49,132 nt of DNA from a virus. The stretch covers positions 1 through 49,132 of IMG/VR virus record IMGVR_UViG_3300006802_013340; one strand, written 5' to 3'. Positions 5,509 to 22,088 of this stretch are shown piece by piece. The stretch's first letter is position 1. Every line of letters begins with the position of its first letter. The position numbers were made by a program, and so were the translations under genes. The notes under the pieces were generated by a model. That model was given only the letters and a program-made list of their open reading frames with translations, was not told the DNA's origin and did not search any database.

Positions 5509-6555
5509 ATGAAAGATAAGATTGTTATTGTTGATATGGCAACTTTGGATCCGATTACAGAAAACGAGGTAGCTGATAACCGGTTCGGTGGATGGATGTA
5601 CGCAGCAGGAAATCTGCTCTTTGAACAGATGGCTTCTAAACCGCTAGAATCCATGAATAAGACAGTGCTTCAAGCTGTAGACACCTTTGTATTTTCATCT
5701 CTAAGTTGGGATCCAGAATACAAACAACGGGCTTTTCAAGGGAAGATTAGGCCTGACTCTATCCTTAAAGGAATGGGAGTCAACGCGATGGTTGAGGTTA
5801 CCAAGTTCCTTCGAAAAGAAGTGGACATGTTTAGTTTAAACTACATGTGCGCCACTGGTTTAAAAGCCATCGAGTTAGGTAGGTTACTGATCGAAGCCCA
5901 AAATCAAGTAGTCCTCGTCGGTTGTATTGATGATCCTATCGTTGAGATCGAGATCAAAGCTGCGATGGCAACTCGAGCCATTAGTGTAGACGATACTTAT
6001 TATGGGCCTTTCGATAAGAAGAGGAGCGGGTTTGCTGCAGGTCGTTCTGCTTCTTATGTCGCGATATGTAGCGAGAAGAAAGCAAAAGAGCTTGGGGTAG
6101 ATCCGATCGCTGTGATTGAAGACGTACGATCAGCCACAAAAGGCATCGCTCGTACACAGCCATCTGATGCTGACTTCTTGTGTCAACTTGTAGACTCAGT
6201 CGTAAAAGACTGGGATAGCATTGGTCATTGGAACGCTCATGCTACAGCAACTCCTGTAGGAGACGTGATCGAATATGATATGTTTAAACGGAGTGTAGGC
6301 AATCGCGATATCCCAATCTCGAGCTTGAAAGGTCGTATTGGACATACGATGTCAAACTCGGGTCTCTGTGAGATGATTCATGGTATCATGTCTTTTCAAC
6401 AGAAAAAGGTCTTTAAGACGCACAACCTCGTAGACCCATTCGTCGATGATCCTCGCATTATCATGGAAGACGTAAGCACCACGAAAGATACGTTTCTGAA
6501 GTGTTCATTCGGTTTCTCAGGTAAAAACTCTGTGGTATTAGTAAAATGTCTGTAA
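5509..6555 (+). CDS. beta-ketoacyl-ACP synthase-like (FabF/KAS) enzyme
   Basis: A 348-aa thiolase-fold condensing enzyme. The catalytic Cys is C114 in NYMCATGLKAIE (compare ACATG in FabF). The first His is H244 in WNAHATATPVGD, replacing the usual NAHGTSTP, and Lys274 and the second His H279 lie in SLKGRIGHTMSNSG. The full Cys-His-His set suggests decarboxylating condensation of malonyl-ACP with an acyl primer rather than a chain-length factor. It is shorter than the usual ~410 aa of FabF. The 3' end overlaps the AspH-like gene by 10 bp. Together with the desaturases it points to fatty-acyl or polyketide-like chain building. Start chosen at ATG with AGGTGA 4 nt upstream. Confidence 0.8.
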   Translation: MKDKIVIVDMATLDPITENEVADNRFGGWMYAAGNLLFEQMASKPLESMNKTVLQAVDTFVFSSLSWDPEYKQRAFQGKIRPDSILKGMGVNAMVEVTKFLRKEVDMFSLNYMCATGLKAIELGRLLIEAQNQVVLVGCIDDPIVEIEIKAAMATRAISVDDTYYGPFDKKRSGFAAGRSASYVAICSEKKAKELGVDPIAVIEDVRSATKGIARTQPSDADFLCQLVDSVVKDWDSIGHWNAHATATPVGDVIEYDMFKRSVGNRDIPISSLKGRIGHTMSNSGLCEMIHGIMSFQQKKVFKTHNLVDPFVDDPRIIMEDVSTTKDTFLKCSFGFSGKNSVVLVKCL

Positions 6556-7100
6556 CAAAGATCGGCGAAGTCGATTTAGAACGAGTAAAGAACGAGCTGT
6601 TCAAGCATGAAGTGCTACGTAATTTAGAAAAGCATAGTTCTAATCAAGAGCTGCACTTAAAATATAACCTACAACGTAGAAGTAAGACTTCAGACTTTTC
6701 TACTACTGGTAAGTCTCTATGGGCAACTAACCCTGAAGGAAATGACTTTTTACCTTATGATCCCGACTACACTGAGAACTTATATCGTAGCGAGATGCCT
6801 TATGTGTACTTGCTCATTGAAGAGTTTAACCTATGCCGAACTCGAGTATTAACACTTCAACCTAGTACAAACTATTCATTTCATCAAGACTTAACTAAAC
6901 GAATACACATACCAATAATTTCAAACGAACATTGTGTATTCATTATAGATGATAAGGTATGGAGACTTCCAGCAGATGGATCGGTTTATTTAGTTGATAC
7001 CACTCTACTACATACTGCTATCAATGGCAATATGAGAAAGTTTAATCGTATGCACTTAGTCGGTTCGATCGAGTCTGACGTGCAAGACGAAGAAGAATAA
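6546..7100 (+). CDS. AspH-like 2OG-Fe(II) dioxygenase
   Basis: A 184-aa protein with the layout of aspartyl/asparaginyl beta-hydroxylase (AspH/LpxO/OlsC) enzymes. Iron ligands are H113-x-D115 in NYSFHQDLTKR and distal H156 in DTTLLHTAIN, and R168 in NRMHLVGS is the 2-oxoglutarate-binding Arg. LpxO and OlsC in this superfamily hydroxylate lipid A and ornithine-lipid acyl chains, which suits the setting, but the substrate is unknown. Translation is coupled to the ketoacyl synthase. Its last 59 bp overlap, tail to tail, the end of the convergent desaturase gene. Confidence 0.7.
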   Translation: MSVTKIGEVDLERVKNELFKHEVLRNLEKHSSNQELHLKYNLQRRSKTSDFSTTGKSLWATNPEGNDFLPYDPDYTENLYRSEMPYVYLLIEEFNLCRTRVLTLQPSTNYSFHQDLTKRIHIPIISNEHCVFIIDDKVWRLPADGSVYLVDTTLLHTAINGNMRKFNRMHLVGSIESDVQDEEE

Positions 7101-7848
7101 GTGTATTGATTACATATTTGCCTGGATCAAACTGCCACCACTTCTTACCGATACGATAGTTACCAGGATCAGCATGATGGTTATTATGCCATCCTTCTCC
7201 GAAAGTAAAGTATGACCACCACCATACGTTGTGAGAAGAATCTTTTGTATAAGACCTCTTATTGCTACCAAAGATAGCAGCATGATCTATCCAGTTACTC
7301 ATACGAGATGCTATAGTGTTAAAGAACACTGGTATGAAGAATAAATGAATCGCGTATAGCGGGTCGATCAAAGATAATAAGATAGGTACTGCTAACACGA
7401 TAGCGGTATAGTATCGATGCATGAACCTATGAAATGGATCTGTGACGATGTCCTTCACATCCCACTTATTGAACTCTGCGCTGTAGTCCCCGATGATGGC
7501 ACCAATAGGACCAAGCACCGTTGGAGAGTGTGGGTCTCCTGGTTTATCTGCATATCTGTGGTGTCTACGATGCACGAACGTCCATCCTAAAGAACTGCCA
7601 GTGCAACCCAAGTTACCAAACAGAGAGAACAAGTATTCTACTGGCTTTGCAAGTTTATATGAGCGATGAGCGAGTAGTCTATGAAACGTAACGGTGATAC
7701 CAAGACACGTGATCAAGAAGTAGCCGCATAAAGATAGCATCCAGAGCTCCATGCTACTCTGATGCGCCAAAGCATAGACGAAAGCCATCGCACTGACGAG
7801 TTGAATCGCAATGAAGAATGTATTCGATGGGAGTAGGTATCTCTGCAT
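7042..7848 (-). CDS. membrane fatty-acid desaturase (delta-9-like), copy 1
   Basis: A 268-aa di-iron acyl desaturase with three His boxes, HRLLAH (56-61), HRRHH (93-97) and HNNHH (221-225), between hydrophobic segments. This is the delta-9/DesC-like pattern: O2-dependent cis double-bond insertion into acyl chains at the membrane. YADKPGDPHSP after box 2 is typical. It is the last gene of the leftward lipid run. The ATG follows a GATAAATA box by 5 nt. It overlaps the AspH-like gene on the other strand by 59 bp. Which acyl substrate or position it acts on cannot be read from sequence. Confidence 0.88.
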   Translation of the reverse strand: MQRYLLPSNTFFIAIQLVSAMAFVYALAHQSSMELWMLSLCGYFLITCLGITVTFHRLLAHRSYKLAKPVEYLFSLFGNLGCTGSSLGWTFVHRRHHRYADKPGDPHSPTVLGPIGAIIGDYSAEFNKWDVKDIVTDPFHRFMHRYYTAIVLAVPILLSLIDPLYAIHLFFIPVFFNTIASRMSNWIDHAAIFGSNKRSYTKDSSHNVWWWSYFTFGEGWHNNHHADPGNYRIGKKWWQFDPGKYVINTLILLRLARQTRSNRLSAYD

Positions 7849-7852
7849 ATCA

Positions 7853-8587
7853 CTATTTATCAGTTCTCACTAAATTTATTAACCAAAATCCTGGATCAAA
7901 CTTTCCTTTTTTAAACTGTGGATCGTTTGGGTATTGATGATGATACCCATGCCATCCGTCTCCAAAGCTGATGAGTATGATGAACCAATTGTCGCATGCT
8001 CTGTTTTCTGGATCTTTCCCTTTGTGACAGAACGTATTACCTAAGCTAACTGTCATGTAGCTCAGTGCACCAGGTGCAACGACTGTAGCGATGGACCACT
8101 GCAAGCCAAAGAGGAGTGTGACTACGACAAATGTCCCAAGGACGATCGCGAGGTAGTATTGATGTATGAACGTATGGAACGGATCACGCATCATGTCTTT
8201 CACGAGCTTATAGTTAACTTCACCTTTCCATGCTAACATAGGGAAGTACTGCTGCCACCAGTTGTTGATCCATGGAGAATGAGGGTCACCTTCTCGATCA
8301 GGATACTTATGATGTTGACGATGCCATAACACTCGAGTAATACTCGAGCCAGTAAAACTAAACACTCCTAAGAGTGTACCAAACATCTCAAACCAGCGAG
8401 GAGCTTGCCATGAACGATGAGCAAGTAGTCTATGATAAGTGACAGTCCCAGCGACAAAGATGTTCAAGCAGTGAAGGGCTAACATCACTGCTATCTGCGA
8501 CCAAGTCCCAAAGATCAACGTATAGAGTAACGCAAGGTGAGATACTACCACAAGGGCAAAGTATCTGTACCTCGTCGTCATCCACAT
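7853..8587 (-). CDS. membrane fatty-acid desaturase, copy 2
   Basis: 244 aa with His boxes HRLLAH (52-57), HRQHH (89-93) and HGYHH (213-217). The third box has GY where the other copies have NN. Hydrophobic segments flank boxes 1 and 2 and span about 145-185. Start chosen at ATG preceded by TAGGAGTTACTG. The stop (GATAAATAG) coincides with the late-like box before copy 1. It is clearly divergent from its five sister genes, so a different regiospecificity or substrate is possible. Confidence 0.88.
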   Translation of the reverse strand: MWMTTRYRYFALVVVSHLALLYTLIFGTWSQIAVMLALHCLNIFVAGTVTYHRLLAHRSWQAPRWFEMFGTLLGVFSFTGSSITRVLWHRQHHKYPDREGDPHSPWINNWWQQYFPMLAWKGEVNYKLVKDMMRDPFHTFIHQYYLAIVLGTFVVVTLLFGLQWSIATVVAPGALSYMTVSLGNTFCHKGKDPENRACDNWFIILISFGDGWHGYHHQYPNDPQFKKGKFDPGFWLINLVRTDK

Positions 8588-9645
8588 CAGTAACTCCTAC
8601 TAAACTTCACTTGCTTATTAAACTCTTCTCTTGACAAGAACTTATCTTGCTTGATGATACCAGGTTTTGCAAACCCAATGTTCTGTAAACCTTGAGTTCC
8701 TTTATGTAGCAGGTTGTCAAAGTTACAAGTCTGTCTAATCAAGACTCTCTTACTGCAATCTTTTGTAGGACGTCGATGTACGGTAATGGTTTGATCCATC
8801 CATACCATGTCTCCGTCTTTCCAGTCATGATGGTACATGTACTCATCACGCAAGAACTTATTTAAGATCCAGTTGGTGATGTCCTGTGACTCCTCTTCGT
8901 TATACCCTTTGTAGCCCACTACAGTATTATAGCTAAGACGAATGCCGCGCCTTCCGGTTGTACTTGAGCAAGTCACAGGTACCTCACTCTGGTCAATCGG
9001 ACACATGTTCATGCGTACGATGTTATCTTGTTCTTTATTCAGCCCAGGAGCGATCTTACCTGTCGTATAGCTATGTATAGCGATTAGATTTTCTAACCAC
9101 TTTTGATCGTCTTTTCCTAAAGACTCAAACGCATCGTGCGTCTGTAAGAACTCTGTACATGTGCCTTCTGTACCAGATACCGCCATCAGCCCGATACATG
9201 GACAGAAGTTACCAGTGCCTTGGCGATCTGAGTGCCAATCAAGTTCACCATCAGCAAACATACCTAAGTAGTCGCCTTCATCGTCTTTCTTTCCAGTGAC
9301 CCAGATCTGGCCATCGTGCTCTTCAAGTCCTTTACGGATCTTACGCATGTTCTTCAACACTGACAAGTCTTCACGCGTCAATAAACCAGCACTCTTCTTT
9401 TCTTCGACGAGTGCATATACGCTTTGCTTGGTATCAATCCCGCCAAAAGGATCACCAAACCGCTTGGCGATATAGTTGAGTCGTGGAGCAGGGAGTGTAC
9501 AGTTTTTACTATCGATCACCACGACAAGTTGATCAGCGATGACTCTACCAACCTCATCGATCTCTTCGTCTGATGCCGTCTTTAAGTCTACGTCTTCTGT
9601 CTCGACACCAAGTGTACCGAAACCATTAAGCTTCTTTAGGTTCAT
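8587..9645 (-). CDS. TauD/TfdA-like 2OG-Fe(II) dioxygenase
   Basis: 352 aa from the ATG at 9645, which has GAGGAAGAAA upstream; an earlier in-frame ATG at 9669 is less likely. Iron ligands are H138-x-D140 in DWHSD and distal H290 in ITVHRRP, with Arg near 300-304 for 2-oxoglutarate. LMAVSGTEGTCTEF after the HxD is typical of TauD/TfdA enzymes, which hydroxylate small acids or amino-acid derivatives. The start region lies in a 36-bp sequence repeated exactly at the end of the gene at 10367. Substrate unknown. Confidence 0.8.
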   Translation of the reverse strand: MNLKKLNGFGTLGVETEDVDLKTASDEEIDEVGRVIADQLVVVIDSKNCTLPAPRLNYIAKRFGDPFGGIDTKQSVYALVEEKKSAGLLTREDLSVLKNMRKIRKGLEEHDGQIWVTGKKDDEGDYLGMFADGELDWHSDRQGTGNFCPCIGLMAVSGTEGTCTEFLQTHDAFESLGKDDQKWLENLIAIHSYTTGKIAPGLNKEQDNIVRMNMCPIDQSEVPVTCSSTTGRRGIRLSYNTVVGYKGYNEEESQDITNWILNKFLRDEYMYHHDWKDGDMVWMDQTITVHRRPTKDCSKRVLIRQTCNFDNLLHKGTQGLQNIGFAKPGIIKQDKFLSREEFNKQVKFSRSY

Positions 9646-9659
9646 TTTCTTCCTCAAGT
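9624..9659. repeat. 36-bp direct repeat, copy A
   Basis: Exactly identical, base for base, to 10365-10400. Here it supplies the ribosome-binding site and first codons of the TauD-like gene. In copy B the same bases encode, in another frame, the last residues and stop of the GNAT-like gene. Confidence 0.9.
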
Positions 9660-9681
9660 AGATTTGCATCTTCTTCTGTGT

Positions 9682-10347
9682 TTAATAAGCGCCTGACGGT
9701 AAATTCTTCAGCCATTCTGGTTCATCCTCAATTGCAAAACATTCATCATCTGTTTCAATATCTACTATTACATGTATACGCTCATACGGAGAATAGTTTT
9801 CGGCAGCATGTAGCCATAAATTATTTAGTTGATACAAGTTTCCTGATTTCATATGTATCTCTTTATCATTATGCCTACAATAGAATAATACCATTGGGTT
9901 TGTGATGATAGGTACATGAAATCTTTTATAGACTTCCCAATATGGACCCGGATCTCTATGATATGGGATACCAGATTCTGGAAGTAACTTTGCTAGCATG
10001 ATCTGGCCTAAACGTTTACCTTTTACTGTTTGATATATCCAATCCACTAATTTGTTGACATGTGGAAATAATACTCGTGCTTGAGTATCTGCACACTCAA
10101 TAACTTTGCTGTGCTCATGTACAGACTTTGCCATGCCCGCAGGAATCTTATGATAACGAAGGTGTATGGTTTGACATGAGCCGAACACGTGTTGCTTCTT
10201 ATTACCTTGTCCAACCATTCCATCTTGAGTAGAGCCTCGAGTTTGCGGCATCTTATCCCAGATGTCTATCTCTTCGACCTCTTTGAGAGTCGGACCAAAT
10301 ACTTCATCAGGAACATTTTCGATTAGCTGAACATGATCGATCATCAT
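9682..10347 (-). CDS. AspH-like 2OG-Fe(II) dioxygenase, paralogue A
   Basis: 221 aa. Iron ligands H130-x-D132 (IPYHRDPGPYW) and H180 (NLWLHAAENYS), with R190 in YERIHVIVDIE as the likely 2-oxoglutarate ligand. The HRDPG ... R.HVPI ... G.LYQLNNLWLH ... R.HV.VDI layout fits the aspartyl/asparaginyl beta-hydroxylase fold. It is strongly similar over its whole length to the gene at 10975-11616, so the pair arose by duplication. Likely an acyl or amino-acyl hydroxylase of the lipid cluster; the substrate is inferred only from context. Confidence 0.75.
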   Translation of the reverse strand: MMIDHVQLIENVPDEVFGPTLKEVEEIDIWDKMPQTRGSTQDGMVGQGNKKQHVFGSCQTIHLRYHKIPAGMAKSVHEHSKVIECADTQARVLFPHVNKLVDWIYQTVKGKRLGQIMLAKLLPESGIPYHRDPGPYWEVYKRFHVPIITNPMVLFYCRHNDKEIHMKSGNLYQLNNLWLHAAENYSPYERIHVIVDIETDDECFAIEDEPEWLKNLPSGAY

Positions 10348-10364: not shown

Positions 10365-10400
10365 CATTAAGCTTCTTTAGGTTCATTTTCTTCCTCAAGT
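10365..10400. repeat. 36-bp direct repeat, copy B
   Basis: Exact match to 9624-9659 on the same strand. It covers the C-terminal codons (LEEENEPKEA) and stop of the GNAT-like gene. Flanking bases differ at both ends, so the repeat is sharply bounded. Confidence 0.9.
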
Positions 10401-10978
10401 TCATAACCTACATTTCGAAATTCACTCTTTAAACAAAACTTTGCGATCATGATTCGTATTGGCCACTCTCTATGCATCAAGAAAGCATCATGCAAATGAT
10501 ACTTTGATCGAGTACCAGGTTCAAGGATCTCTTCCACATAACGAGTGTATCGCTCAGTGACACCAGTAGCATTCATAAAGTCACGACCTAAATGTCTAAA
10601 CTTTTCAGGCCATTTTTCGAGGGATCTATTGTACCAGAATGTGTATCTACCTTCAGCTTCCATGTCTGCACAGACTTTGGCAACGAGTACTCGAGCAGGA
10701 CTTCTCTCTGGTTGCCAAGAAAAAGTATTGTTCACACCTTGTTTTACTAGCCAAGGTCCAATATAAGTTGAAGCATGGTGTGTCATGCGAATGCAACGCA
10801 GACACGCTACGAGTTCACCATCTTCCCATGCACCATAATACTGAGTAACCTTCTCTCTAACCTTTAACTCTTGCATGTCAAAGAAGACACGTTGTAACTT
10901 CTTATGAGAGTTAACGAGTGCTTCAAGTTCGTCAGCATCATTTTCAGTCAATTGTCTTACTTCATATTCTTTCATCAT
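10367..10978 (-). CDS. GNAT-like acyltransferase family protein A
   Basis: About 203 aa. WEDGELVACLRCIRM resembles the central strands of GNAT or autoinducer-synthase-like acyltransferases. The C-terminus KYHLHDAFLMHREWPIRIM followed by CLKSEFR has a clear counterpart in the protein at 14908. Start set at the ATG overlapping the upstream stop (TGATG); an ATG at 10987 is also possible. In GNAT enzymes such as OlsB or FeeM an acyl chain moves from ACP or CoA to an amine. That role would suit this cluster but is inference. The last 36 bp are duplicated at 9624. Confidence 0.5.
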   Translation of the reverse strand: MMKEYEVRQLTENDADELEALVNSHKKLQRVFFDMQELKVREKVTQYYGAWEDGELVACLRCIRMTHHASTYIGPWLVKQGVNNTFSWQPERSPARVLVAKVCADMEAEGRYTFWYNRSLEKWPEKFRHLGRDFMNATGVTERYTRYVEEILEPGTRSKYHLHDAFLMHREWPIRIMIAKFCLKSEFRNVGYELEEENEPKEA

Positions 10979-11616
10979 ATTTTCCATCTTTCTTCGGGAA
11001 TCATGAATTGCGGGTTGTCTGTTTCAATATCTATGATTACATGGATACGCTCGTATGGAGAATAATTATCTACTCCGTGAAGCCATAAGTTGTTGAGTTG
11101 GTATAAACTTCCGGCTTCCATGTATATTTCTTTATCATTGTGCCCGCACTTGAATAATACCATTGGATTTGTAATGATGGGCACATGAAATCTTCTGTAC
11201 GTCTGAAAGTATGGACCAGGATCTCTATGTAACGGGATACTTGATTCCTCAAGCATCTTTGCAAGCATGACTCGGCCTAAACGTTTACCATCAACACGTG
11301 TATAGGCCCAATCGATGACTTTATTAAGAGCTGGAAACCAAGCGCGGGCTCGAGAGTCTTGACACTCGATGATCTTACTATGGTCTCTAATCGTAGTAGC
11401 AGTGCCTGGAGGAACCTTATGATAACGAACATGTATCGTTTGGCAATCACTAAAGATGTGTTTTTTATTCTCGCCTTCTCCCACCATACCATCTTTCGTA
11501 TAGTTTCGAGTTTGCGGAATAGATTCCCAATAATCTATCTTCTGAACTTCTGTGAGTGCTTGTTCAAATAGGTCTTTAGGCGCTTCATCAATCCATTCAA
11601 CAGAATCAATCATCAT
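10975..11616 (-). CDS. AspH-like 2OG-Fe(II) dioxygenase, paralogue B
   Basis: 213 aa, paralogue of the gene at 9682. The HxD is in IPLHRDPGPYF and the distal His in NNLWLHGVDNYS, with Arg in YERIHVIIDIE. All likely iron and co-substrate ligands are kept in both copies, so both are probably active, perhaps on different substrates. The stop overlaps the start of the GNAT-like gene by 4 bp. Confidence 0.75.
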   Translation of the reverse strand: MMIDSVEWIDEAPKDLFEQALTEVQKIDYWESIPQTRNYTKDGMVGEGENKKHIFSDCQTIHVRYHKVPPGTATTIRDHSKIIECQDSRARAWFPALNKVIDWAYTRVDGKRLGRVMLAKMLEESSIPLHRDPGPYFQTYRRFHVPIITNPMVLFKCGHNDKEIYMEAGSLYQLNNLWLHGVDNYSPYERIHVIIDIETDNPQFMIPEERWKI

Positions 11617-11619: not shown

Positions 11620-12003
11620 TTATAGCGTATAAAGAATAGCCCTCACTGCCTGAATAGTCTCTTCATCTGGATCGTTGTACTTTGGATCGATAGGCTCTGA
11701 GAGAGTAAACTCAGACTCATGGCCGTTATCATCACAGTATGCCATACGAATCGTCGTATAGCTTGGATACCGTTCTCCCATCACGCGGCGAAACGCGATG
11801 TAATGATCCTGAGAAGGGAATGTAAGCACACGATCATACGTGTTTCCATCCACGCCTTTATCTTCAAACGTGAATAAACCCCTCGTGATAAAGTGTTGTC
11901 TTAAGGCGTGGACTCCAGCAATCAAGTCTTCTTCAATCTCGTAGAAGAAAGGTACTTCATTGCCTTCTGGTCGAATCAACCTCATCGTAAGCGTCATTGA
12001 CAT
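11620..12003 (-). CDS. 127-aa hypothetical protein
   Basis: Starts MSMTLTMRLIRPEGNE with AGGAGAATATT before the ATG. It is acidic, with an alpha/beta pattern and no hydrophobic segment, so probably cytosolic. GVHALRQHFITRGLFTFED and the later FRRVMGERYPSYTTIR do not match a family I know. It sits inside the lipid run, between a TauD-like and an AspH-like gene. Confidence 0.6.
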   Translation of the reverse strand: MSMTLTMRLIRPEGNEVPFFYEIEEDLIAGVHALRQHFITRGLFTFEDKGVDGNTYDRVLTFPSQDHYIAFRRVMGERYPSYTTIRMAYCDDNGHESEFTLSEPIDPKYNDPDEETIQAVRAILYTL

Positions 12004-12036: not shown

Positions 12037-12873
12037 CTATTTATGTTTGATATTAGCTCTCCAAAAAGCACGTTCTTCTCCTGCTTTTACATTACAGTGC
12101 GATCGTTTATGGATCATATTCCAGTTATCATAGATGATCAAGTCATTCACTTCCCACTGATGTGTGTAGAGCAAATCTGGTCGAGCTTCAAACTTTTCGT
12201 GAATTGGTTCAAGAGTATATTGATTATCAACCAGTTCACCATTTAAGTATGTCTCTTTGATCCAAGCCATATTCGTCTTATCATCTCTTGGATTCACATA
12301 GTAGTTACAACGAAGAGACTTCTTATTGGTGACTGGATGAGCCTTGATAAAAGGCTGTTTAACGATCTGTTCTCCTGGACGATACCATGATTGGTTTAAG
12401 ATCTCCATGTTCTCATATTGATGCATCTCTTCAGATGAAGGTTTCATCAAGTCGAGGCGAATATTTGCCCATGTCGTGAGTCCAGTCGTTGGGTCTGGAT
12501 TACTTAACATGTACAATGATCTCCATGGAAAAGAATCTTCTCCATTATTGGGAATGTCAACGTGCCACGGCATCATGTAGTGTTGAAGGCGAAATGCACT
12601 CACATTACTAAAGTAAGTAATATGCCGAGTGCCTTCTTCGTCCACCGCAAGAGCTTTCTCTGTTGAGTAACGATACTCTTGACCAGTCCACGGAGTACCA
12701 AAACAAGAGATCAAGTCATGATACTGAGACTTAGTGATTACACCAAGGCCTCTAAAAAGGATCAAGTCCCTTTGATACCCTAAGTCCTTGAATGTGTGCT
12801 TATGCTCCATGACATCTTCATATGTGCCATAGACGATCGAGCCCCATGATTCATGTATATTTTCAACTCGCAT
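12037..12873 (-). CDS. TauD/TfdA-like 2OG-Fe(II) dioxygenase
   Basis: 278 aa. HxD at H104-x-D106 (MPWHVDIPNN), distal H255 (WNMIHKRSH), Arg at 268/272 (ERAFWRANI). LYMLSNPDPTTGLTTWANI after the HxD, and DLIIYDNWNMIHKRS, are the usual TauD-family blocks. The family oxidises small acidic or amino-acid substrates with O2 and 2-oxoglutarate. It overlaps the upstream gene by 11 bp. Only moderately similar to the other TauD-like gene at 8587, so not a recent duplicate. Confidence 0.8.
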   Translation of the reverse strand: MRVENIHESWGSIVYGTYEDVMEHKHTFKDLGYQRDLILFRGLGVITKSQYHDLISCFGTPWTGQEYRYSTEKALAVDEEGTRHITYFSNVSAFRLQHYMMPWHVDIPNNGEDSFPWRSLYMLSNPDPTTGLTTWANIRLDLMKPSSEEMHQYENMEILNQSWYRPGEQIVKQPFIKAHPVTNKKSLRCNYYVNPRDDKTNMAWIKETYLNGELVDNQYTLEPIHEKFEARPDLLYTHQWEVNDLIIYDNWNMIHKRSHCNVKAGEERAFWRANIKHK

Positions 12874-13621
12874 ATAACATTTCCTTTAATCCTGGGCGGA
12901 AAACTCCATCTACTCTGATAGAGAAAGCAAAGTGCTCGACTGGTTCTGTTCCGTGAAAGTCCATCTCATTAAACCAAACGAATCGCTTGTCATCCTCAGG
13001 ATAAACTCTTTCTTTTGTCTCATCATCCATCACAAAAACTGACTTAGTCGTAGGTTTGGTAGTGAACCATACAAAGTCATCGTTTGGCTTTGTGTTTCGT
13101 TGTTGTTCTGATCCTGCATCAAAGTGAGGCACAGTTTGGTTGTTTGCCTCTGTCATGAATAAGATGATCCTGCCGATACCTTGAAAAGGCATAGACTCAA
13201 TAAACTTACGAAGCTTAGGAAAGTGCTTAGCATTATCAGTCCATTCGCATTCGGATTCGACTGACTTATTTGCAACACGACTCTGTTCGATCATCATGTT
13301 CTCTCTTAGCCATAGTACCCAAAATGGATGAGGTACATGTGACAATGCATTCAAGTACTTTAGCTTTTGTTCGATTAACGGCAATGATTCGAGTATGTGA
13401 AGCTGTTCTGCATTTAAGTGCTGAGATGCAGTCTTCAAGTACGGAGTGATCTCTTTGTCTGCCCAGTCTTTGTGTACGCCTGAAGATACAAATGTCTTCT
13501 GCCACTTGGACAAAGCGATGCCTCTACATACTTCAGTATGCAGAGATTCCCAATCGACTTCAGGTATAAAGTCGTCGAGGTATAGGTGAGGTGCCTTATT
13601 TGGGCCTAGGCCTCGGATCAT
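12863..13621 (-). CDS. 2OG-Fe(II) dioxygenase-like protein
   Basis: 252 aa from ATG at 13621, preceded by GGAAGG; a TTG at 13636 is the only longer option. The C-terminal half has H166-x-D168 (TVPHFDAG), H223 (MDFHGTEPVEH) and R236 (FSIRVDGVFRP), in the order and spacing of a 2OG-Fe(II) double-stranded beta-helix. The N-terminal half is helical and unassigned. It overlaps the upstream stop by 26 bp. Substrate unknown. Confidence 0.65.
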   Translation of the reverse strand: MIRGLGPNKAPHLYLDDFIPEVDWESLHTEVCRGIALSKWQKTFVSSGVHKDWADKEITPYLKTASQHLNAEQLHILESLPLIEQKLKYLNALSHVPHPFWVLWLRENMMIEQSRVANKSVESECEWTDNAKHFPKLRKFIESMPFQGIGRIILFMTEANNQTVPHFDAGSEQQRNTKPNDDFVWFTTKPTTKSVFVMDDETKERVYPEDDKRFVWFNEMDFHGTEPVEHFAFSIRVDGVFRPGLKEMLYAS

Positions 13622-14162
13622 GTGATGACCTTCCAAACTCTCCCATTAAAGGAGCAACGAGGATACAGTTTTGTTTTAGATTGTGCATGTGCACGAACTT
13701 TTGATAATAAAGCAATGACAAATCTTCTGAGATGTGCGGGTATGGTTCCCATCGATCGATCATGAACCCAGATTCTGAGATACCATCTCTCAAAGACTCG
13801 AGAATTGGATCATTAAAATATTTATGAAGATGAGATTCGTTCTTCCATATCTCAATATAGTCGATCGACCTTTCTCTAACGTTTAAGATCTTGACTCTCC
13901 ATACGAGTTCTCCAGAAAACCATGCATCTTCAAAGATCTTATTATGAACTTTCCAATATTCTACAAGATGACGAGTACGAGCCCTCAAGTTTAAACCTGA
14001 AGGTCCTGCTACAGGGTTACTCGTAGAAGCATCAGATTCTGCAGAAGGTATGAAGTAATTTTGTAAGAACTCTTCGTTGAGCTTTGGATCGATGTGTTTG
14101 ATCCATAAGTAACGTAACCTATACTCATTTACTCCGTCTGGTCTGATGAGCGCGTCTCTCAT
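13596..14162 (-). CDS. 188-aa hypothetical protein of the lipid cluster
   Basis: No firm family. Begins MRDALIRPDGVNEYRLRYLWIK; rich in Trp, Tyr and Arg. FEDAWFSGELVWRVKIL followed by IDYIEIWKNESHLHKY suggests an alpha/beta or GNAT-like fold. Start overlaps the upstream desaturase stop (ATGA), implying coupled translation and a role in the same pathway. Confidence 0.5.
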   Translation of the reverse strand: MRDALIRPDGVNEYRLRYLWIKHIDPKLNEEFLQNYFIPSAESDASTSNPVAGPSGLNLRARTRHLVEYWKVHNKIFEDAWFSGELVWRVKILNVRERSIDYIEIWKNESHLHKYFNDPILESLRDGISESGFMIDRWEPYPHISEDLSLLYYQKFVHMHNLKQNCILVAPLMGEFGRSSHDPRPRPK

Positions 14163-14911
14163 TTCAATAACGGTAGGAACAACCTTGTAGGGTCAAACTC
14201 CCACCACTTCTTTCCAAAGTTGTAGTTTCCTGGGTCATGATGATGGTTATTGTGCCATGCCTGACCCCATGTAAAGAACGCGATCAATGGTTGGTTATAG
14301 CTATTGTCATTCGTATCATAGTTACGATAGCCAACACCCAACTTCAGATGGCCTACCACGTTCACCATATTGTCTTGTAAGTTAGAGATCAATCCTGGCA
14401 AATAGAACAACATGCATGCGACCTTCCAGTCCCATAACAAGAAGAGCAGAGGCACTCCAAACAATACTTTCCTATAGTGATCGAAGAACCATACATGATG
14501 CTTCTTACGTAAAAGATCAGTCGCTCCTCTTAAACTGAACCAACTCGGTAGATCATAGTGCCAAAGTAAAGTACGCATGACACCGTGTACTTTAGGACTA
14601 TGAAGGTCTTTTTCAGTGTCAGCATGTCGATGATGGTGCCCGCGATGAGCAGCCACCCAAAAGATGCTAGGACCCTGACCAGCAAATGTGCCAAGGAAAA
14701 GTAAGATGCATTCTTTCCATGCAGGTAGATCGTGCGTCTTATGACTAAAGACACGATGATAACCTACAGAGATACCTAACCCGCTGAATAACACCCAACC
14801 AATCAATGTGAGCCATAAGTAATCGAGCGGGATATATCCTAGGCTCAATAAGCCTATCGTGATCAGTCCAAAGAGTAGGACCGGTGGTTGAGTCATCATC
14901 GAATCTTTCAT
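14159..14911 (-). CDS. membrane fatty-acid desaturase, copy 3
   Basis: 250 aa with HRVFSH (52-57), HRGHH (89-93) and HNNHH (220-224). GHHHRHADTEKDLHSP has Leu where the other copies have Pro before HSP. Two membrane hairpins flank the His boxes as in DesC/SCD-type desaturases. Both ends overlap neighbours by 4 bp, so it is translated as part of the run. Confidence 0.88.
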   Translation of the reverse strand: MKDSMMTQPPVLLFGLITIGLLSLGYIPLDYLWLTLIGWVLFSGLGISVGYHRVFSHKTHDLPAWKECILLFLGTFAGQGPSIFWVAAHRGHHHRHADTEKDLHSPKVHGVMRTLLWHYDLPSWFSLRGATDLLRKKHHVWFFDHYRKVLFGVPLLFLLWDWKVACMLFYLPGLISNLQDNMVNVVGHLKLGVGYRNYDTNDNSYNQPLIAFFTWGQAWHNNHHHDPGNYNFGKKWWEFDPTRLFLPLLK

Positions 14912-15480
14912 CTATATTCCTGTTTCAGGTAGGTGCATCGAACTACAGTATCTACTGGATACGTGTGGCGCCAATACAAGTGTTCATAGTGTTTTGCATG
15001 ATGGCAACTTTCATTCGCCTTAACTATGTATTCATCAAAATAATCATATCGCTGGTTCACATCTTCAGAGAAAAGGAGGTTGCGAATGTTATTTTTTCCG
15101 GCATGCTTTGCGTTCATCATAGAATAAAACTTCAACCTTTTTTCCATCTCATTATGAGAGATGGCAAGGTCTAAGCACCGTGGTAGGTGATGTGCGCCTT
15201 TACCGCTTGCCCGCATGATAGTAAAAAACCAAGAAGGTTCGAACTTGTCTATGTCATAGGTGATGAGGGCTTCTACCTTATCGTCTTGAAAAAACCCTAT
15301 AGAATAGCCTTCTCCGAAAAGATAGTGCTCACAGAAGAACTCATAATGAAACTTACGTACCTTCTCTTCTGTACGATTGCCTACCTCACGAAAAGCTTCC
15401 TTCGACGACATGAACTTAGCATTATCGTAGAAGAGGTGTTTTACTGAATCAGCGTGTTTATAATCTAGGACATCAATCAT
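14908..15480 (-). CDS. GNAT-like acyltransferase family protein B
   Basis: 190 aa from ATG at 15480, which overlaps the upstream stop as ATGA; a GTG at 15492 is possible. GFFQDDKVEALITYDI is a GNAT-like strand pair, and the C-terminal RHTYPVDTVVRCTYLKQEYR parallels protein A (WPIRIM ... CLKSEFR at 10367), so they belong to one divergent family. Acyl transfer to an amine is a reasonable but unproven role. Confidence 0.5.
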   Translation of the reverse strand: MIDVLDYKHADSVKHLFYDNAKFMSSKEAFREVGNRTEEKVRKFHYEFFCEHYLFGEGYSIGFFQDDKVEALITYDIDKFEPSWFFTIMRASGKGAHHLPRCLDLAISHNEMEKRLKFYSMMNAKHAGKNNIRNLLFSEDVNQRYDYFDEYIVKANESCHHAKHYEHLYWRHTYPVDTVVRCTYLKQEYR

Positions 15481-16385
15481 TGGTTTATGCACAGTCTCTC
15501 TACGACGCGATGATAGTCTTCATAGTATCCACCATAATATTGCAGTTTCCATGCTTGAAAATGATCCATCATGTATGATTTTCCAAGGTCTGTGTTTAAG
15601 AACTCTTCATAACCAGTCATCTTCTTACGAGTCTTCCAATCATAGTTTACCATATTAAATCCAGAGCCATTGTTGAATACATGGCACTTACTTGAGTTTG
15701 TACCAAGCTTTCCAGGATACTTGCCGTTTGCAAGGTCTACGATCGTTGGATCGAGTAAGAAAGATAACATCTGCTCTGCTCGATAGCTCAAGAAGAACGG
15801 ACAGCCAGGAACTTCAAACCGATGAAAGAACCGAAGTATCGAGTGAATGATCTCTAACTCTTCAAGGCACCATGAATCAGTGTCTTGAAAATACTTCAAA
15901 TAAGGTGGATCGTTTCCCATGACGATGAACTCATCAAGCTCTTTGGCTACCTTCATCGTAGCAGGTATCATCCAAGAACCACACTCAAACTGATCAGCAA
16001 GTTCGATCAACTCTCCAGACTCAAAGAACGGGTCAAAGTCAAACACGATGACCTTAGGCTTGATACCTAAACACTTACAATGTTCAAAGGCATACTTTGA
16101 CTCTTCATGATTATAGTCATGAATCATGCCACGTCCTTGCACTCGTATGATGACAGGTACAAAGTCCATCTTCAGTGAATGCAACACGTTGAATACGTAC
16201 TGAGAATCTAATCCACCACTATAGAGCAGATGGATCTTACCTTGTTTGTTCTCGTATACGTAACGAGCCGTCTCAAGGGTCTCTTCGTGGTAACTCTTTA
16301 CTTTACCTTTCGGAGGATCAATATCAACGTGCCAATATTTACCGTTACCACTTCCGCGAAGGTAGTTGTCTTTTATCAAGTTCAT
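15477..16385 (-). CDS. PP-loop ATPase (asparagine-synthase/QueC-like)
   Basis: 302 aa. Strand-loop LLYSGGLDSQYV (S56-S61) is the PP-loop that binds the phosphates of ATP in N-type ATP pyrophosphatases, and PVIIRVQGRG and KVIVFDFDP provide further strands of the fold. Such enzymes adenylate a carbonyl or carboxylate to form amides or related products (asparagine synthetase, QueC, beta-lactam synthetase). No glutaminase domain is present, so ammonia or an amine would be the nucleophile. It overlaps both neighbours, GNAT-like (4 bp) and Rieske (4 bp). Confidence 0.75.
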   Translation of the reverse strand: MNLIKDNYLRGSGNGKYWHVDIDPPKGKVKSYHEETLETARYVYENKQGKIHLLYSGGLDSQYVFNVLHSLKMDFVPVIIRVQGRGMIHDYNHEESKYAFEHCKCLGIKPKVIVFDFDPFFESGELIELADQFECGSWMIPATMKVAKELDEFIVMGNDPPYLKYFQDTDSWCLEELEIIHSILRFFHRFEVPGCPFFLSYRAEQMLSFLLDPTIVDLANGKYPGKLGTNSSKCHVFNNGSGFNMVNYDWKTRKKMTGYEEFLNTDLGKSYMMDHFQAWKLQYYGGYYEDYHRVVERLCINQ

Positions 16386-17200
16386 TGCTCATCATTCATC
16401 CATCTACGATAGTGCAACTTGCTCTCTTCAAGGTTTTCGTCAAAGCCGTTCTCATCAGGCACTATCAGTTCTGCTTGCATTCTGTCTTGCATCCATGCAT
16501 CTTCCCACGTATAGGAATGAAGTTTCCAATTCTCATCGGTAGAATCGTTAGCACGATACTTATACACGTGTACGTCTGTATAGCCATGATGATTCGTTTG
16601 ACCGGCGACAGTGATGAAGAAGTGTCCGCTTTGCCATTCAACCATGGTGCCTGGATACAAACATAGCCATGCTGCTTGTAAAGTTCCTTGATGACCTTTT
16701 ACGATTTGAGTAGAACCCCAATCGTGATAGTTCCAAGTAATCTCTGAACCGCTATCGATACCGATCTGGTCATAGACTCCGTCATGAAGGTGTTGGATAT
16801 GCTCTACATCTAAGAACACGTCGATGATGCTGGTACGATGTGCCTTTACTTGATCAGTGCGCCTCTCGACTAAAGAGACAGAACATTCAGGTAACTCAAG
16901 CTCCGGAGTTTCGAATGGCTTATCAAAAAACAATGTGTTCCATTCGTGCAACATGGCCTTTTCAAGTGTATCGCAGTTTCCTTTGAGACAGTAGCCGTTC
17001 ATGTCAAACTCACGACCATGGTACATACACGTACGAGACTCGCCTCTACCTTTGACCAAAGAGATCAAAGAACGTTGGTGAGTGCATACGTTACTGAGTA
17101 AGTATGCATTCGGTTCATTTACGAAGATGTACTTCTTATCGAGTTGTTTGACAGGCTCAAACTCTCCGAGCTCTATGTCACTGTTATGACCTATAAACAT
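16382..17200 (-). CDS. Rieske non-haem iron oxygenase, alpha-subunit type
   Basis: 272 aa from ATG at 17200 with AAAGG upstream; the longer frame would run into the preceding desaturase. Rieske [2Fe-2S] ligands are C39-x-H41 (NVCTHQRSL) and C58-x2-H61 (TCMYHGREFD). The catalytic iron site D131-x2-H134-x4-H139 is in FLDVEHIQHLHDGVY. Such oxygenases hydroxylate or demethylate substrates using electrons from a separate reductase, and I find none here. At 272 aa it is shorter than typical ~400-aa alpha subunits. Confidence 0.82.
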   Translation of the reverse strand: MFIGHNSDIELGEFEPVKQLDKKYIFVNEPNAYLLSNVCTHQRSLISLVKGRGESRTCMYHGREFDMNGYCLKGNCDTLEKAMLHEWNTLFFDKPFETPELELPECSVSLVERRTDQVKAHRTSIIDVFLDVEHIQHLHDGVYDQIGIDSGSEITWNYHDWGSTQIVKGHQGTLQAAWLCLYPGTMVEWQSGHFFITVAGQTNHHGYTDVHVYKYRANDSTDENWKLHSYTWEDAWMQDRMQAELIVPDENGFDENLEESKLHYRRWMNDEQ

Positions 17201-17202
17201 GA

Positions 17203-17979
17203 TTAACCTTTCATTCGAATCATTCTGATTACGTAAGCAGTAATATCTATTTGCCACCATTTTTGTCCGCAACTAAAGTTACGCGGGTGTCGATGATGGT
17301 TATTGTGCCAAGTTTCTCCCCAAGAAGGGATCGCCCATAACCAGTTATTGGCAGACTGATCTGGTGTATTATATGTCCTAAAAGAACCGAGCGAGTTAGG
17401 CTTATGTCCTATATAATTTACAACGTTTGACATGACTGCAGTCACGGCTGCCGGTGCGAGGTGACCAAAGATCATGAGGTATGGACCACCGATCAGCAAT
17501 AACGCAATACTCCATAGTGCTATTATACCAAAATAATAGCGATGAAGGAACTGCTGGTATCGATTTGTGATCAAGTCTCTCATCCTCCATTTGACTTCAT
17601 CATCAACTCCCGACTCATAGTCGAGTTTAAATACGTTTAGTCCTTGATACAAAGGACTGTGAGGGTCATCCTTCTTATCTGATTTCAGGTGATGACATAG
17701 GTGGATGGCGACCCATGCGATAGGACTTCCTGTACCAGCGAGTGAGCCAAAGAATGAGAAGAGCTTGACGATGTATGGATGTGTCTTATAGCTCTGATGA
17801 GTAAGGTTACGATGGAAAGTCGCGACGATCCCAAGTGAGCCATATACAAAGTAACCGAGTACGATAAGACCAACGATCTGTAGGTCAATACCATACGTCA
17901 CGAACCCGATAAGGCTCATGATGAGTGAAAAGATTAAGAAAGCTTGGGCGCCGTTGGTGCTAGATGCTAGGTACTTCAT
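17203..17979 (-). CDS. membrane fatty-acid desaturase, copy 4
   Basis: 258 aa with HRNLTH (56-61), HLCHH (93-97; Leu-Cys in the second box) and HNNHH (225-229). KSDKKDDPHSP follows box 2. Four or more hydrophobic segments. Overlaps the upstream desaturase by 4 bp; the Rieske gene starts 2 nt past its stop, so these three oxygenases are co-translated. Confidence 0.88.
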   Translation of the reverse strand: MKYLASSTNGAQAFLIFSLIMSLIGFVTYGIDLQIVGLIVLGYFVYGSLGIVATFHRNLTHQSYKTHPYIVKLFSFFGSLAGTGSPIAWVAIHLCHHLKSDKKDDPHSPLYQGLNVFKLDYESGVDDEVKWRMRDLITNRYQQFLHRYYFGIIALWSIALLLIGGPYLMIFGHLAPAAVTAVMSNVVNYIGHKPNSLGSFRTYNTPDQSANNWLWAIPSWGETWHNNHHRHPRNFSCGQKWWQIDITAYVIRMIRMKG

Positions 17980-18743
17980 CTTGCTACTGCCTTTATAAGA
18001 TAAACAACGGGGTCAATTTCCCACCACTTATGGTGTGTACTTAACTTTGAAGGTTCTCCATGATGGTTATTATGCCATGCTTCACCAAAGTTTAAGAACC
18101 ACAACCAAAAGTTGTTTGTACTCTGATCTTTTTTATGATAGTTTTTGTAACCAGACTTATGATTAAAATAATTGAAGAGGTTGAAACTTACCTCTAACAT
18201 TAAGATAGGCAACACATAGATGAAGTAAAAAACATCAAAGCTGACTAACATCAACGGGACGACTACAGCTGCCACGATCAGCCAATAATAGGTGTTGATG
18301 AAAACCTGTTCCTTATTCATCAAGCTTTTGACGAGAAGCGGATTCATCTTAAACTCATAAGACACACGTAAGTTATCATAAAAGCCAAAAAGCTTGAAAC
18401 CTTGGCTGATAGGACCGATAGGATCTTCGTGTGTATCAGCCTTTGCATGATGCATGCGATGCACATAGACCCAACCAATAGGACTACCACGAGTGCAGAG
18501 TATCGAGATGAGAGTAAAAAATCTAAGTAGCCATTTACTCTTAAACTTAAAATAACTGTGTGAATAGTAACGATGCATCATCATGTGCATGCCTATGATG
18601 TTCAACACAAAGAAAGACGCAATCATCATCAATGCATGATCGAGAGTAAACTCAATGAAGAACACACCAATGATCGCGATGCACGACAAGAGAGCGTGCA
18701 CGATTGCGACCGATCGAGTGGATGCTTTAAATAGGTTTGTCAT
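17976..18743 (-). CDS. membrane fatty-acid desaturase, copy 5
   Basis: His boxes HRYYSH, HRMHH and HNNHH lie at about 57-62, 95-99 and 224-228 counted from the ATG at 18743 (255 aa); a GTG two codons earlier is possible. HEDPIGP replaces the usual DPHSP after box 2. The ATG comes 6 nt after a GATAAATA box that includes the upstream stop, the same junction as before copy 1. Keeps all eight conserved His. Confidence 0.88.
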   Translation of the reverse strand: MTNLFKASTRSVAIVHALLSCIAIIGVFFIEFTLDHALMMIASFFVLNIIGMHMMMHRYYSHSYFKFKSKWLLRFFTLISILCTRGSPIGWVYVHRMHHAKADTHEDPIGPISQGFKLFGFYDNLRVSYEFKMNPLLVKSLMNKEQVFINTYYWLIVAAVVVPLMLVSFDVFYFIYVLPILMLEVSFNLFNYFNHKSGYKNYHKKDQSTNNFWLWFLNFGEAWHNNHHGEPSKLSTHHKWWEIDPVVYLIKAVAR

Positions 18744-18748
18744 AATCA

Positions 18749-19324
18749 CTATTTATCTACCCACCGGATAGCTTCCCAGTTAGGCTGGTAGCTCTCATCG
18801 ATATTACGGTATAGTAGCCATTGCTTTGTATACTGTATCTCAACTGGAAACTCAACGATCTGTGGCTTACTGCCATGGAAAAGTCCACCTGGACCTTTTC
18901 GTTTTACGATGCCCGTTCCAGTCCTCATGAAGTTATGTCTTAGCTTCTGATTATACTCATTGAAGCTAACTGCAAAGGTCTTCATGCCTCTTCGTTTGGC
19001 CCATTCTAATTGCTCAGGCAAGATAACACCACCGAGTAAAAACTTACCTCTATGCTCTTCATTGACCCAACTACGAACTCCGCCGAGTGCAACGTATGGA
19101 TCAAACTGAGAAATATAAATCCCTGACCCGATGCATATCTTATCGTTTATCTTTAAGAAGTAATACGTACCGTTGTCTCCGCTTAACCTCTTTTTGTCTC
19201 CATACAAAAGGTCTGGAAGAGTACGCATGTTGACATGTGCAGGATCATCGATACACAGACTCGCATCACGGATAAAATCCATGACTTCTTCTTTATCAAG
19301 GTCAGTGTATTCAAAGATCTGCAT
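18749..19324 (-). CDS. GNAT-like acyltransferase
   Basis: 191 aa. The core SGIYISQFDPYVALGGVRSW, NEEHRGKFLLGGVILPEQLEWAKRRG and FNEYNQKLRHNFMR follow the GNAT order: strand, acyl-donor-binding loop (HRGK-x3-GG, in place of R/Q-x-x-G-x-G/A), helix, then strand. The donor could be acyl-ACP or acyl-CoA. It is the first protein gene after the tmRNA and starts 10 nt past the 3' hairpin, with no clear ribosome-binding site. It heads the coupled lipid operon. Confidence 0.6.
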   Translation of the reverse strand: MQIFEYTDLDKEEVMDFIRDASLCIDDPAHVNMRTLPDLLYGDKKRLSGDNGTYYFLKINDKICIGSGIYISQFDPYVALGGVRSWVNEEHRGKFLLGGVILPEQLEWAKRRGMKTFAVSFNEYNQKLRHNFMRTGTGIVKRKGPGGLFHGSKPQIVEFPVEIQYTKQWLLYRNIDESYQPNWEAIRWVDK

Positions 19325-19334
19325 GGTAAATGGT

Positions 19335-19737: not shown

Positions 19738-19742
19738 CCATC

Positions 19743-19771: not shown

Positions 19772-19787
19772 TATAGAACTAAAGTAT

Positions 19788-20651: not shown

Positions 20652-20664
20652 TTGTTCTCCTTTT

Positions 20665-20685: not shown

Positions 20686-20688
20686 CGT

Positions 20689-20723: not shown

Positions 20724-20732
20724 TCGCATGTT

Positions 20733-21149
20733 TTACGAAATATTTTTCCATTTCACTTGGCCTGCAGCAGGATGGCCAGATGGATACTTCTCATTATCCT
20801 TATTTGTAAAATGCTCTACACCAACAACTTTACGACCACTCATACCAATATGAAAATCAATACGATGACGTACACCTTGATTACCCGTCACAGCATGAAT
20901 CGTGTGCATGTCATACTTATTTCCAACAGAAGACTTCTCTACAGAATGTGCAAAGCCTTGTTGTCCAGCACCCATGATGTGTTGCTTATATAACGGGTGC
21001 TTCATCACAACATTCATGGTTGCACGACCAAAGTGCTGCATAGCTTCTTTACCACTCATCACCTTAGGCTTACCAGACGCATCCCTTTTCGGAGGCTCAG
21101 GCATCTTTGTTGCAGCCATCTCTGCGATGTGACTTCTAAAGTTTTTCAT
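20733..21149 (-). CDS. 138-aa hypothetical protein
   Basis: Starts MKNFRSHIAEMAATKMPE. His- and Lys-rich with a C-terminal alpha/beta part (residues about 80-138: HAVTGNQGVRHRIDFHI and GRKVVGVEHFTN). No family recognised. A late-type TATAAATA lies 50 nt upstream. Its N-terminal style (short, basic, Met-rich) is like proteins found beside structural genes in T4-like marine phages, so it may be a late or virion-associated protein. Confidence 0.6.
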   Translation of the reverse strand: MKNFRSHIAEMAATKMPEPPKRDASGKPKVMSGKEAMQHFGRATMNVVMKHPLYKQHIMGAGQQGFAHSVEKSSVGNKYDMHTIHAVTGNQGVRHRIDFHIGMSGRKVVGVEHFTNKDNEKYPSGHPAAGQVKWKNIS

Positions 21150-21152
21150 TGA

Positions 21153-21200
21153 TTATTGGACGTTGTTGTGTATCCATTGCCAGTATTCTTCTACTGTCAT
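21153..21200 (-). CDS. possible 15-aa leader peptide
   Basis: ATG at 21200 preceded by a consensus AGGAGG 7 nt upstream, encoding MTVEEYWQWIHNNVQ and a stop 3 nt before the next gene. The late promoter box TATAAATA overlaps its ATG, so it could be translated only from upstream transcripts. It may be a coupling peptide; weak evidence because it is so short. Confidence 0.3.
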   Translation of the reverse strand: MTVEEYWQWIHNNVQ

Positions 21201-21207
21201 ATTTATA
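21200..21207 (-). promoter_or_regulatory. T4-type late promoter (TATAAATA)
   Basis: Exact octamer on the minus strand, 50 nt before the ATG at 21149. It overlaps the spacer and ATG of the tiny ORF at 21153-21200. Confidence 0.6.
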
Positions 21208-21211
21208 CCTC

Positions 21212-21337
21212 CTAAAAAATCTTGTTGAGTAACCAAATGATCAAGAATACGAGACACATAAAGCACACGCCTAAGACGAAACCAGCAGCAAAGTAATGCT
21301 GATTCGTCAATGCGAACTTTATAGTAGACTCAATCAT
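21212..21337 (-). CDS. 41-aa single-pass membrane protein
   Basis: ATG at 21337, overlapping the desaturase stop by 8 bp. A strong hydrophobic segment spans about residues 16-38 (AAGFVLGVCFMCLVFLIIWL), ending LNKIF. Likely a small inner-membrane protein co-translated with the sixth desaturase. Function unknown. Confidence 0.5.
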   Translation of the reverse strand: MIESTIKFALTNQHYFAAGFVLGVCFMCLVFLIIWLLNKIF

Positions 21338-22088
21338 TTGCCTTTGTTGAGATCAATCGTATAAGCTGCCAACCAAAGTCAAACTCCCACCACTTCTGTC
21401 CGAACTTAGCAGACGATGCCTTATGGTGATGGTTATTATGCCATCCTTCTCCCCATAAAAAGTATCCAGTGAATATGTTGTTTACGCTCTTATCTTTTGT
21501 CTCATAGCTCCTATAGCCAAAAGAATGGTTTACTGTATTTACAAGGCCTCCTGCCACAAACAGCAAGATGCCAGGAGTCAAGTACGCATATGTGATAGCA
21601 TAAGGTTCAATAACTAGCAAAAGCAACACGTACAACCCTGAAACGGCCCAATGGTACTTATGTAAGAAAGATATGTAAGGTGACCTTATCATGTCAGGAG
21701 CATTCGTGATAAAGAATTTAGGCGGTTTATCCTCTATCATACGAAAGATGATACGAAACCATGACACGTGTATTGGGCTGTGAGGATCCTTAGCCTCATC
21801 AGAGTATCGATGATGGGCTCGATGCACTGCTACCCATATGATAGCACTCGTAGAAGAAAACAGCGTGAACAAGAGTACCATCGGGTTGATGATCCAAGCT
21901 GATGCTTCGAAACTACGATGAGTTAGATACCTATGAATGATAACAGTATCAATCACTCCCAAGACAAAGTAGATCGATAAGACGATCGACCATTCTAGCC
22001 ATCCTCCTGTCAGGATCGTATAGACGAGAGAAAGCACGCCTAAGATGGCAAATATCTCTTGACTTTTCTTACTTGGAGCTAGGTTCAT
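21330..22088 (-). CDS. membrane fatty-acid desaturase, copy 6
   Basis: 252 aa from ATG at 22088. His boxes HRYLTH, HRAHH and HNNHH (about 52-57, 89-93 and 217-221 from this start), with SDEAKDPHSP after box 2 and KFGQKWWEFDFGW at the end, as in the other copies. It is separated from the other five by pstS and the tmRNA. TATAAATA ends only 6-7 nt before the ATG, so the late transcript may be leaderless. The pattern is that of delta-9-type desaturases. Confidence 0.88.
   Translation of the reverse strand: MNLAPSKKSQEIFAILGVLSLVYTILTGGWLEWSIVLSIYFVLGVIDTVIIHRYLTHRSFEASAWIINPMVLLFTLFSSTSAIIWVAVHRAHHRYSDEAKDPHSPIHVSWFRIIFRMIEDKPPKFFITNAPDMIRSPYISFLHKYHWAVSGLYVLLLLVIEPYAITYAYLTPGILLFVAGGLVNTVNHSFGYRSYETKDKSVNNIFTGYFLWGEGWHNNHHHKASSAKFGQKWWEFDFGWQLIRLISTKAND

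Follow-up and report, generated by a model that had tools for sequence, protein, structure and literature searches.

Why would a phage carry a ketoacyl synthase, six membrane fatty acid desaturases and a set of iron-dependent oxygenases side by side, and what would it make with them? The question is raised by an IMG/VR virus record of 49,132 bases (IMGVR_UViG_3300006802_013340; this whole stretch of DNA is called the window), which we take to be a piece of a T4-like phage genome, given its DNA polymerase (phrog_262, 1035.6 bits), UvsX and DnaB-like helicase; the virus is aquatic. A first reading of the letters alone, here called the sequence-only reading, had named genes spanning 5509–22094 and proposed that they form an island for biosynthesis of a lipid or N-acyl metabolite. 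Our analysis indicates that the island is probably a phage-borne and phage-specific module for fatty-acyl biosynthesis. The general idea of a lipid or acyl pathway gained support from gene co-occurrence and from the acyl carrier protein (ACP), AcpS and FabZ genes of sister clusters, whereas the proposed analogy to OlsB/FeeM and OlsC/LpxO failed; an N-acyl amide or aminolipid is a plausible but unproven product.

Enzyme families of the island

Proteins were assigned by Pfam searches against curated cut-offs (22.6 bits for PF05118, Asp_Arg_Hydrox) and by active-site motifs; scores for each gene are collected in Table 1. The beta-ketoacyl synthase (KAS) contains both domains of its family, PF02801 and PF00109, and a Cys-His-His active site whose residues C114, H244 and H279 are invariant in the family alignment; against the FabF equivalog model TIGR03150 it reached 92 bits, the cut-off being 493.75. 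PF00487 matched five of the six desaturases (45–62 bits) and all six have three His boxes, the sixth being recognized by these boxes together with a family profile of desaturases. The three AspH-like and two TauD-like dioxygenases all scored above the Pfam cut-offs, and the Rieske non-haem iron oxygenase has both iron-site motifs, CxHx16CxxH and DxxHx4H. These assignments bear out the sequence-only reading; two of its other calls were not upheld. The further 2-oxoglutarate (2OG)-like protein has an HxD motif and no Pfam match, and the gene at 4716–5456 was not accepted as sulfotransferase-like because Pfam gave no support for that identity.

Two or three GNAT-like proteins had also been suggested. 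Sequence comparison supports GNAT folds at the family level, for GNAT3 through PF00583 and for GNAT2 through a profile match to structures in the PDB, while GNAT1 is tied to the GNAT2/GNAT48 group by weak similarity. The more specific parallels did not survive: Pfam searches of the window GNATs and their families gave no match to the OlsB/FeeM-type subfamily (Acetyltransf_5), and AspH2, alone among the three AspH-like proteins in matching the LpxO model NF033391, scored 23.6 bits against a cut-off of 500. Because these tests failed, the label of an ornithine-lipid pathway was rejected.

The PP-loop protein (302 aa, with the loop SGGLDS at about residue 56) found no match in the Pfam search. 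A profile search with its family pointed to NAD synthetase (E 1e-5). An AlphaFold model built from the 28-member family alignment (predicted local distance difference test, pLDDT, 91.7; predicted template modelling score, pTM, 0.91) superseded an earlier one from 6 sequences (pLDDT 75), and its best structural matches in Foldseek were LarE, TtuA, TilS, carbapenam synthetase, and the asparagine and NAD synthetases. Carbapenam synthetase gave the widest overlap (TM 0.42, by query length). The SGGxDS loop in a HUP-like fold places the protein in the PP-loop ATP pyrophosphatase superfamily. It fits neither of two narrower groups: there is no room for the N-terminal glutaminase-like domain of asparagine synthetase B or beta-lactam synthetase, and the conserved cysteines of TtuA-type sulfurtransferases are absent, C103 being the sole invariant Cys among the 28 sequences. 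The protein may still be of a LarE-like single-Cys type.

A second, larger PP-loop family (about 390–410 aa, without Pfam match) was seen in 38 of 74 PP-loop loci (for example L128:5154-7633, L134:12394-13614 and L158:17232-18413), often adjoined by a gene for a TctC-like solute-binding protein.

Recurrence of the gene set in other phages

Scans of IMG/VR with the single KAS or PP-loop protein of the window returned nothing, and alignments were required. A 2-sequence PP-loop alignment retrieved five virus loci and a 6-sequence alignment 76 loci, ~50 of them full-length or nearly so (about 50 IMG/VR virus records). Loci compared in this work, from this and other scans, bear numbers with the prefix L. 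The family had no match among 50,697 phage records, none among 72,556 plasmid records and one among genomes that each represent one of 84,980 species of bacteria and archaea, in scans that rely on short peptide patterns, so that absence is not absolute. The single match (L201, PBPT01000016.1) lies on a 335-kb contig of a Neomarinimicrobiota metagenome-assembled genome that bears T4 gp23 (major capsid) and has its island laid out as in virus loci L164 and L165; for these reasons it was rejected as a bacterial occurrence, and the contig probably belongs to a jumbo phage that was binned with bacterial sequence. Of 44 PP-loop-bearing virus records, 5 also encode T4 gp23, among them records of 352, 364 and 524 kb; most of the others are fragments. 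KAS matches in the cultured-phage collection were set aside as likely host DNA, in view of names and lengths that suggest fragmented or host-contaminated records.

Desaturases, GNAT3, Rieske and AspH-like proteins are among the families that recur around the PP-loop gene. A desaturase gene was found in 42 of 45 PP-loop records, mostly within 10 kb, compared with 5 of 46 T4-like control records, which were chosen by DNA polymerase alone (plus the cultured phage Mosig) and are shorter on average, so that the contrast is somewhat inflated. Random placement within records avoids this length bias: in 15 records of 70–525 kb, 29 of 41 desaturases lay within 10 kb of a PP-loop gene where 6.8 were expected. 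A count of 29 was never attained in 20,000 random placements; some of the 15 phages are related and hence not fully independent.

In the desaturase tree, window desaturases 4 and 5 each fall in a supported clade with proteins from L130, L131, L132, L136 and L154, and in these phages the orthologs adjoin the Rieske and PP-loop genes, an intervening GNAT-like gene being frequent. Conserved desaturases that are not interchangeable, beside the same two enzymes, fit a pathway, unlike a random collection. The layouts most like that of the window occur in L132 and L268, where a run of desaturase and AspH-like genes has KAS and a GNAT-like gene at its end. The number of desaturases in relatives of the island reaches eight. 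Ratios of non-synonymous to synonymous substitution rates were 0.02–0.18 between related copies of the PP-loop, Rieske, GNAT3, desaturase, AspH-like, KAS, FabZ, AcpS and GNAT16 genes, which are therefore retained for function under purifying selection. The scattering that would have spoken against the sequence-only reading was thus not seen, since the families cluster with the PP-loop gene in many phages; nor, as far as sequence tells, did the GNAT-like and PP-loop proteins prove unrelated to acyl or amide chemistry, both folds being supported.

Much or all of a block of AcpS, GNAT-like, Rieske, PP-loop, FabZ, ACP and KAS genes is present in sister clusters (L137, L138, L144–L146, L175, L210, L211, L218 and L264). 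There ACP was confirmed by PF00550, AcpS by PF01648 and TIGR00516 (above cut-off), FabZ by PF07977 and NF000582 (above cut-off), and KAS by Pfam/NCBIfam. ACP, AcpS and FabZ tie the island to acyl-thioester chemistry, and the sister clusters hold four parts of a type II fatty acid synthase: KAS, ACP, FabZ and, as AcpS, the phosphopantetheinyl transferase. In other phage lineages the gene just after KAS encodes a desaturase, and the examined stretch shows no PP-loop gene (L250, L253–L257, L259, L265, L266, L270, L271, L274–L276 and L281).

Radical S-adenosylmethionine (SAM) proteins of the B12-binding type (about 490 aa) also recur in the islands (L126, L158, L164, L176 and others).

Proposed pathway and alternative explanations

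The steps on the chain rest on the established chemistry of the enzyme families; substrates, the order of steps, the product and a benefit to the phage are inferred. KAS would extend or prime an acyl chain on ACP; for the window phage, ACP, AcpS and FabZ would presumably be the host's or be encoded beyond the 49-kb fragment. The membrane di-iron desaturases would insert double bonds at specific chain positions and the Fe/2OG and Rieske oxygenases would add oxygen. The PP-loop ATPase would adenylate, and so activate, a carboxylate or similar group, and the GNAT enzymes would move an acyl group onto an amine. As the most likely product we propose an N-acyl amide or aminolipid that is hydroxylated and polyunsaturated. 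A bolder version, which we hold tentatively, is that T4-like and jumbo phages of aquatic habitats have in common a dedicated, virus-restricted natural-product pathway with a PP-loop family of its own, leading to an acyl amide or aminolipid, polyunsaturated and without a known cellular maker.

Several observations weigh against the proposed module. ACP, AcpS and FabZ were not found in the 49-kb window, and reductases (ketoreductase and enoyl reductase) and the malonyl transferase were not noticed among the recurrent families, in a search that was not exhaustive. The window KAS has a shorter N-terminus than its relatives, support for GNAT1 and GNAT2 is weak, and gene content differs strongly among phages. 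By its predicted structure, the PP-loop protein resembles sulfurtransferases (LarE, TtuA) and amide-forming enzymes (carbapenam and asparagine synthetases) alike; what had been read as an amide-forming ATPase therefore stands as a PP-loop protein, with amide formation not established.

Remodelling of host lipids is the alternative that survives best, and we consider it rather unlikely. The acyl chains of existing phospholipids, lipid A or ornithine-type lipids would be altered for fluidity or surface properties, perhaps under phosphate stress, with no dedicated new product. Lipid desaturases are reportedly encoded by cyanophages (work of Roitman et al. from 2018, cited in PMC8224337), AspH2 weakly matches LpxO, and a PstS gene lies inside the interval, all of which would suit such a role. 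However, the LpxO match is far below its cut-off, the ACP, AcpS, FabZ and KAS genes of the sister clusters suggest carrier-based synthesis, and PP-loop and Rieske genes would be unexpected in simple lipid remodelling.

That the interval is a hypervariable island of unrelated metabolic genes without a common pathway seems improbable to us. The island does occupy one genome position, beside the phrog_1221 gene, at which the relatives L109, L111, L112, L114, L124 and L125 have differing contents, as would fit this explanation; yet the same families cluster at other positions in unrelated phages, where the orthologous desaturase–desaturase–Rieske–PP-loop cassette is kept, and the positional test of desaturases around PP-loop genes strongly disfavours this explanation. 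Modification of a macromolecule (tRNA, DNA or a virion protein) is the least credible, since it leaves no place for membrane desaturases, KAS, FabZ and ACP and the PP-loop family has no conserved Cys pair, even though PP-loop, GNAT, radical-SAM and 2OG enzymes have such roles too and, by E-value, the structures nearest to the PP-loop model include the tRNA-modifying TtuA and TilS besides LarE, with MnmA lower.

Phages with single lipid genes, or with biosynthetic clusters in some cases, were already known. That viruses keep a lipid-like chemistry of their own is suggested by a modular multi-enzyme acyl pathway that is spread across jumbo and T4-like phages and almost wholly missing from the bacterial genomes searched. 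The fatty-acyl module proposed here also brings phage-restricted enzyme families that are new (two of PP-loop proteins and several of GNAT-like proteins), and it provides a concrete gene set for expression together with a compound to seek.

Gene layout and neighbouring features

Seventeen genes at 7042–19324 lie on a single strand with intergenic gaps of -70 to +33 bp; because of this spacing they are likely transcribed as one or few transcripts. Overlaps of 1–26 bp had been described; overlap itself holds for 10 of 16 junctions, and the range extends to 70 bp when the longest open reading frames are taken. KAS and AspH1 are on the opposite strand and converge on desaturase 1, and desaturase 6 is outside the main run.

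Table 1. Genes of the island, with positions in the window and the evidence for each assignment
Feature	Position	Strand	Evidence
Beta-ketoacyl synthase (KAS), 348 aa	5509..6555	+	PF02801 60.1 bits, PF00109 24.3 bits; Cys114-His244-His279 intact
AspH-like Fe/2OG dioxygenase 1	6546..7100	+	PF05118 29.3 bits
Membrane fatty acid desaturase 1	7042..7848	-	PF00487 60.4 bits; three His boxes
Membrane fatty acid desaturase 2	7853..8587	-	PF00487 50.5 bits; three His boxes
TauD-like dioxygenase 1	8587..9669	-	PF02668 67.6 bits
AspH-like dioxygenase 2	9682..10347	-	PF05118 46.9 bits
GNAT-like protein 1 (weak)	10367..10987	-	PF13527 E 0.01, under cut-off; GNAT2 profile 1.9e-5; aligned with GNAT48 family
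AspH-like dioxygenase 3	10975..11616	-	PF05118 36.8 bits
Small protein, 127 aa, without Pfam match	11620..12003	-	
TauD-like dioxygenase 2	12037..12873	-	PF02668 55.6 bits
Possible 2OG-type oxygenase	12863..13636	-	HxD motif; no Pfam match; family in 11 PP-loop loci
188-aa protein without Pfam match	13596..14162	-	
Membrane fatty acid desaturase 3	14159..14911	-	PF00487 45.2 bits; three His boxes
GNAT-like protein 2	14908..15492	-	Family profile to PDB N-acetyltransferases, E 1.4e-4
PP-loop ATPase, founder of apparently phage-restricted family	15477..16385	-	SGGLDS; AlphaFold model; Foldseek PP-loop matches
Rieske-type oxygenase	16382..17272	-	PF00355 37 bits; 2Fe-2S and mononuclear iron motifs
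Membrane fatty acid desaturase 4 (core-cassette ortholog)	17203..17979	-	PF00487 62.5 bits; three His boxes
Membrane fatty acid desaturase 5 (core-cassette ortholog)	17976..18749	-	PF00487 54.2 bits; three His boxes
GNAT-family acyltransferase 3 (core)	18749..19324	-	PF00583 matched by 11 of 19 family members
Membrane fatty acid desaturase 6	21330..22094	-	Three His boxes; desaturase family profile match

Two features lie inside the interval and outside the pathway argument. A permuted (two-piece) transfer-messenger RNA (tmRNA) at 19384–19655 (minus strand) gives a match of betaproteobacterial type (RF04321, 131 bits; RF01850, 100 bits), which hints at a betaproteobacterial host; it is of a known kind, similar phage tmRNAs being present in the OM43 phage Melnitz (PMC9004378). 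A PstS-type phosphate-binding protein is encoded at 19788–20651 (minus strand) and has a relative in L124, at that island's edge. Elsewhere in the window, a second small group at 45716–48415 (minus strand) encodes a radical SAM protein, a 2OG-like protein and a nitroreductase, the last with relatives in Mosig and L124.

Comparison with known systems

The cyanophage desaturases, compared here by title, citation and general knowledge, resemble the island in being phage genes for lipid (fatty acid) desaturases; the island differs in having six desaturases together with KAS, Rieske, PP-loop and GNAT genes and five dioxygenases. OlsB/OlsC and FeeM share with it the GNAT and AspH folds in acyl chemistry, and the family-level tests fail. 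The cispentacin proteins AmcB, AmcE and AmcF (type II fatty acid/polyketide synthases) resemble the sister clusters in having a free-standing ACP with FabZ-like and KAS-like partners, and AmcB is the best NCBIfam match of the L144 ACP; all three sister-cluster proteins score under the cut-offs of the Amc families, and their tailoring enzymes are of another set.

Among cultured phages the nearest is the T4-like marine pelagiphage Mosig EXVC030M (MT647606), which has a related island at 54.7–71.3 kb, in which AspH-like, GNAT3-family, TauD-like and desaturase genes stand together. Unlike the window island, it has aminotransferase, carbamoyltransferase and radical-SAM genes, and the examined stretch yielded no member of the PP-loop, Rieske or KAS families. 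The Mosig genome announcement does not use the terms desaturase, hydroxylase, metabolic or biosynthesis, and the open-licence papers searched gave no account of such a gene combination.

Biosynthetic clusters are known to exist on phage genomes (reviewed in PMC12360287), and deep-water viral genes include fabG, fabF and fabZ (PMC10653327). Roseobacter prophages with fabG-acpP-fabF genes (PMC8224337) likewise link phages to fatty acid synthesis. These prophages keep the ordinary bacterial order with fabG, whereas the recurrent families noticed in the phage clusters described here did not include fabG, and in these clusters the acyl genes are instead joined to desaturases and to a phage-restricted PP-loop family.

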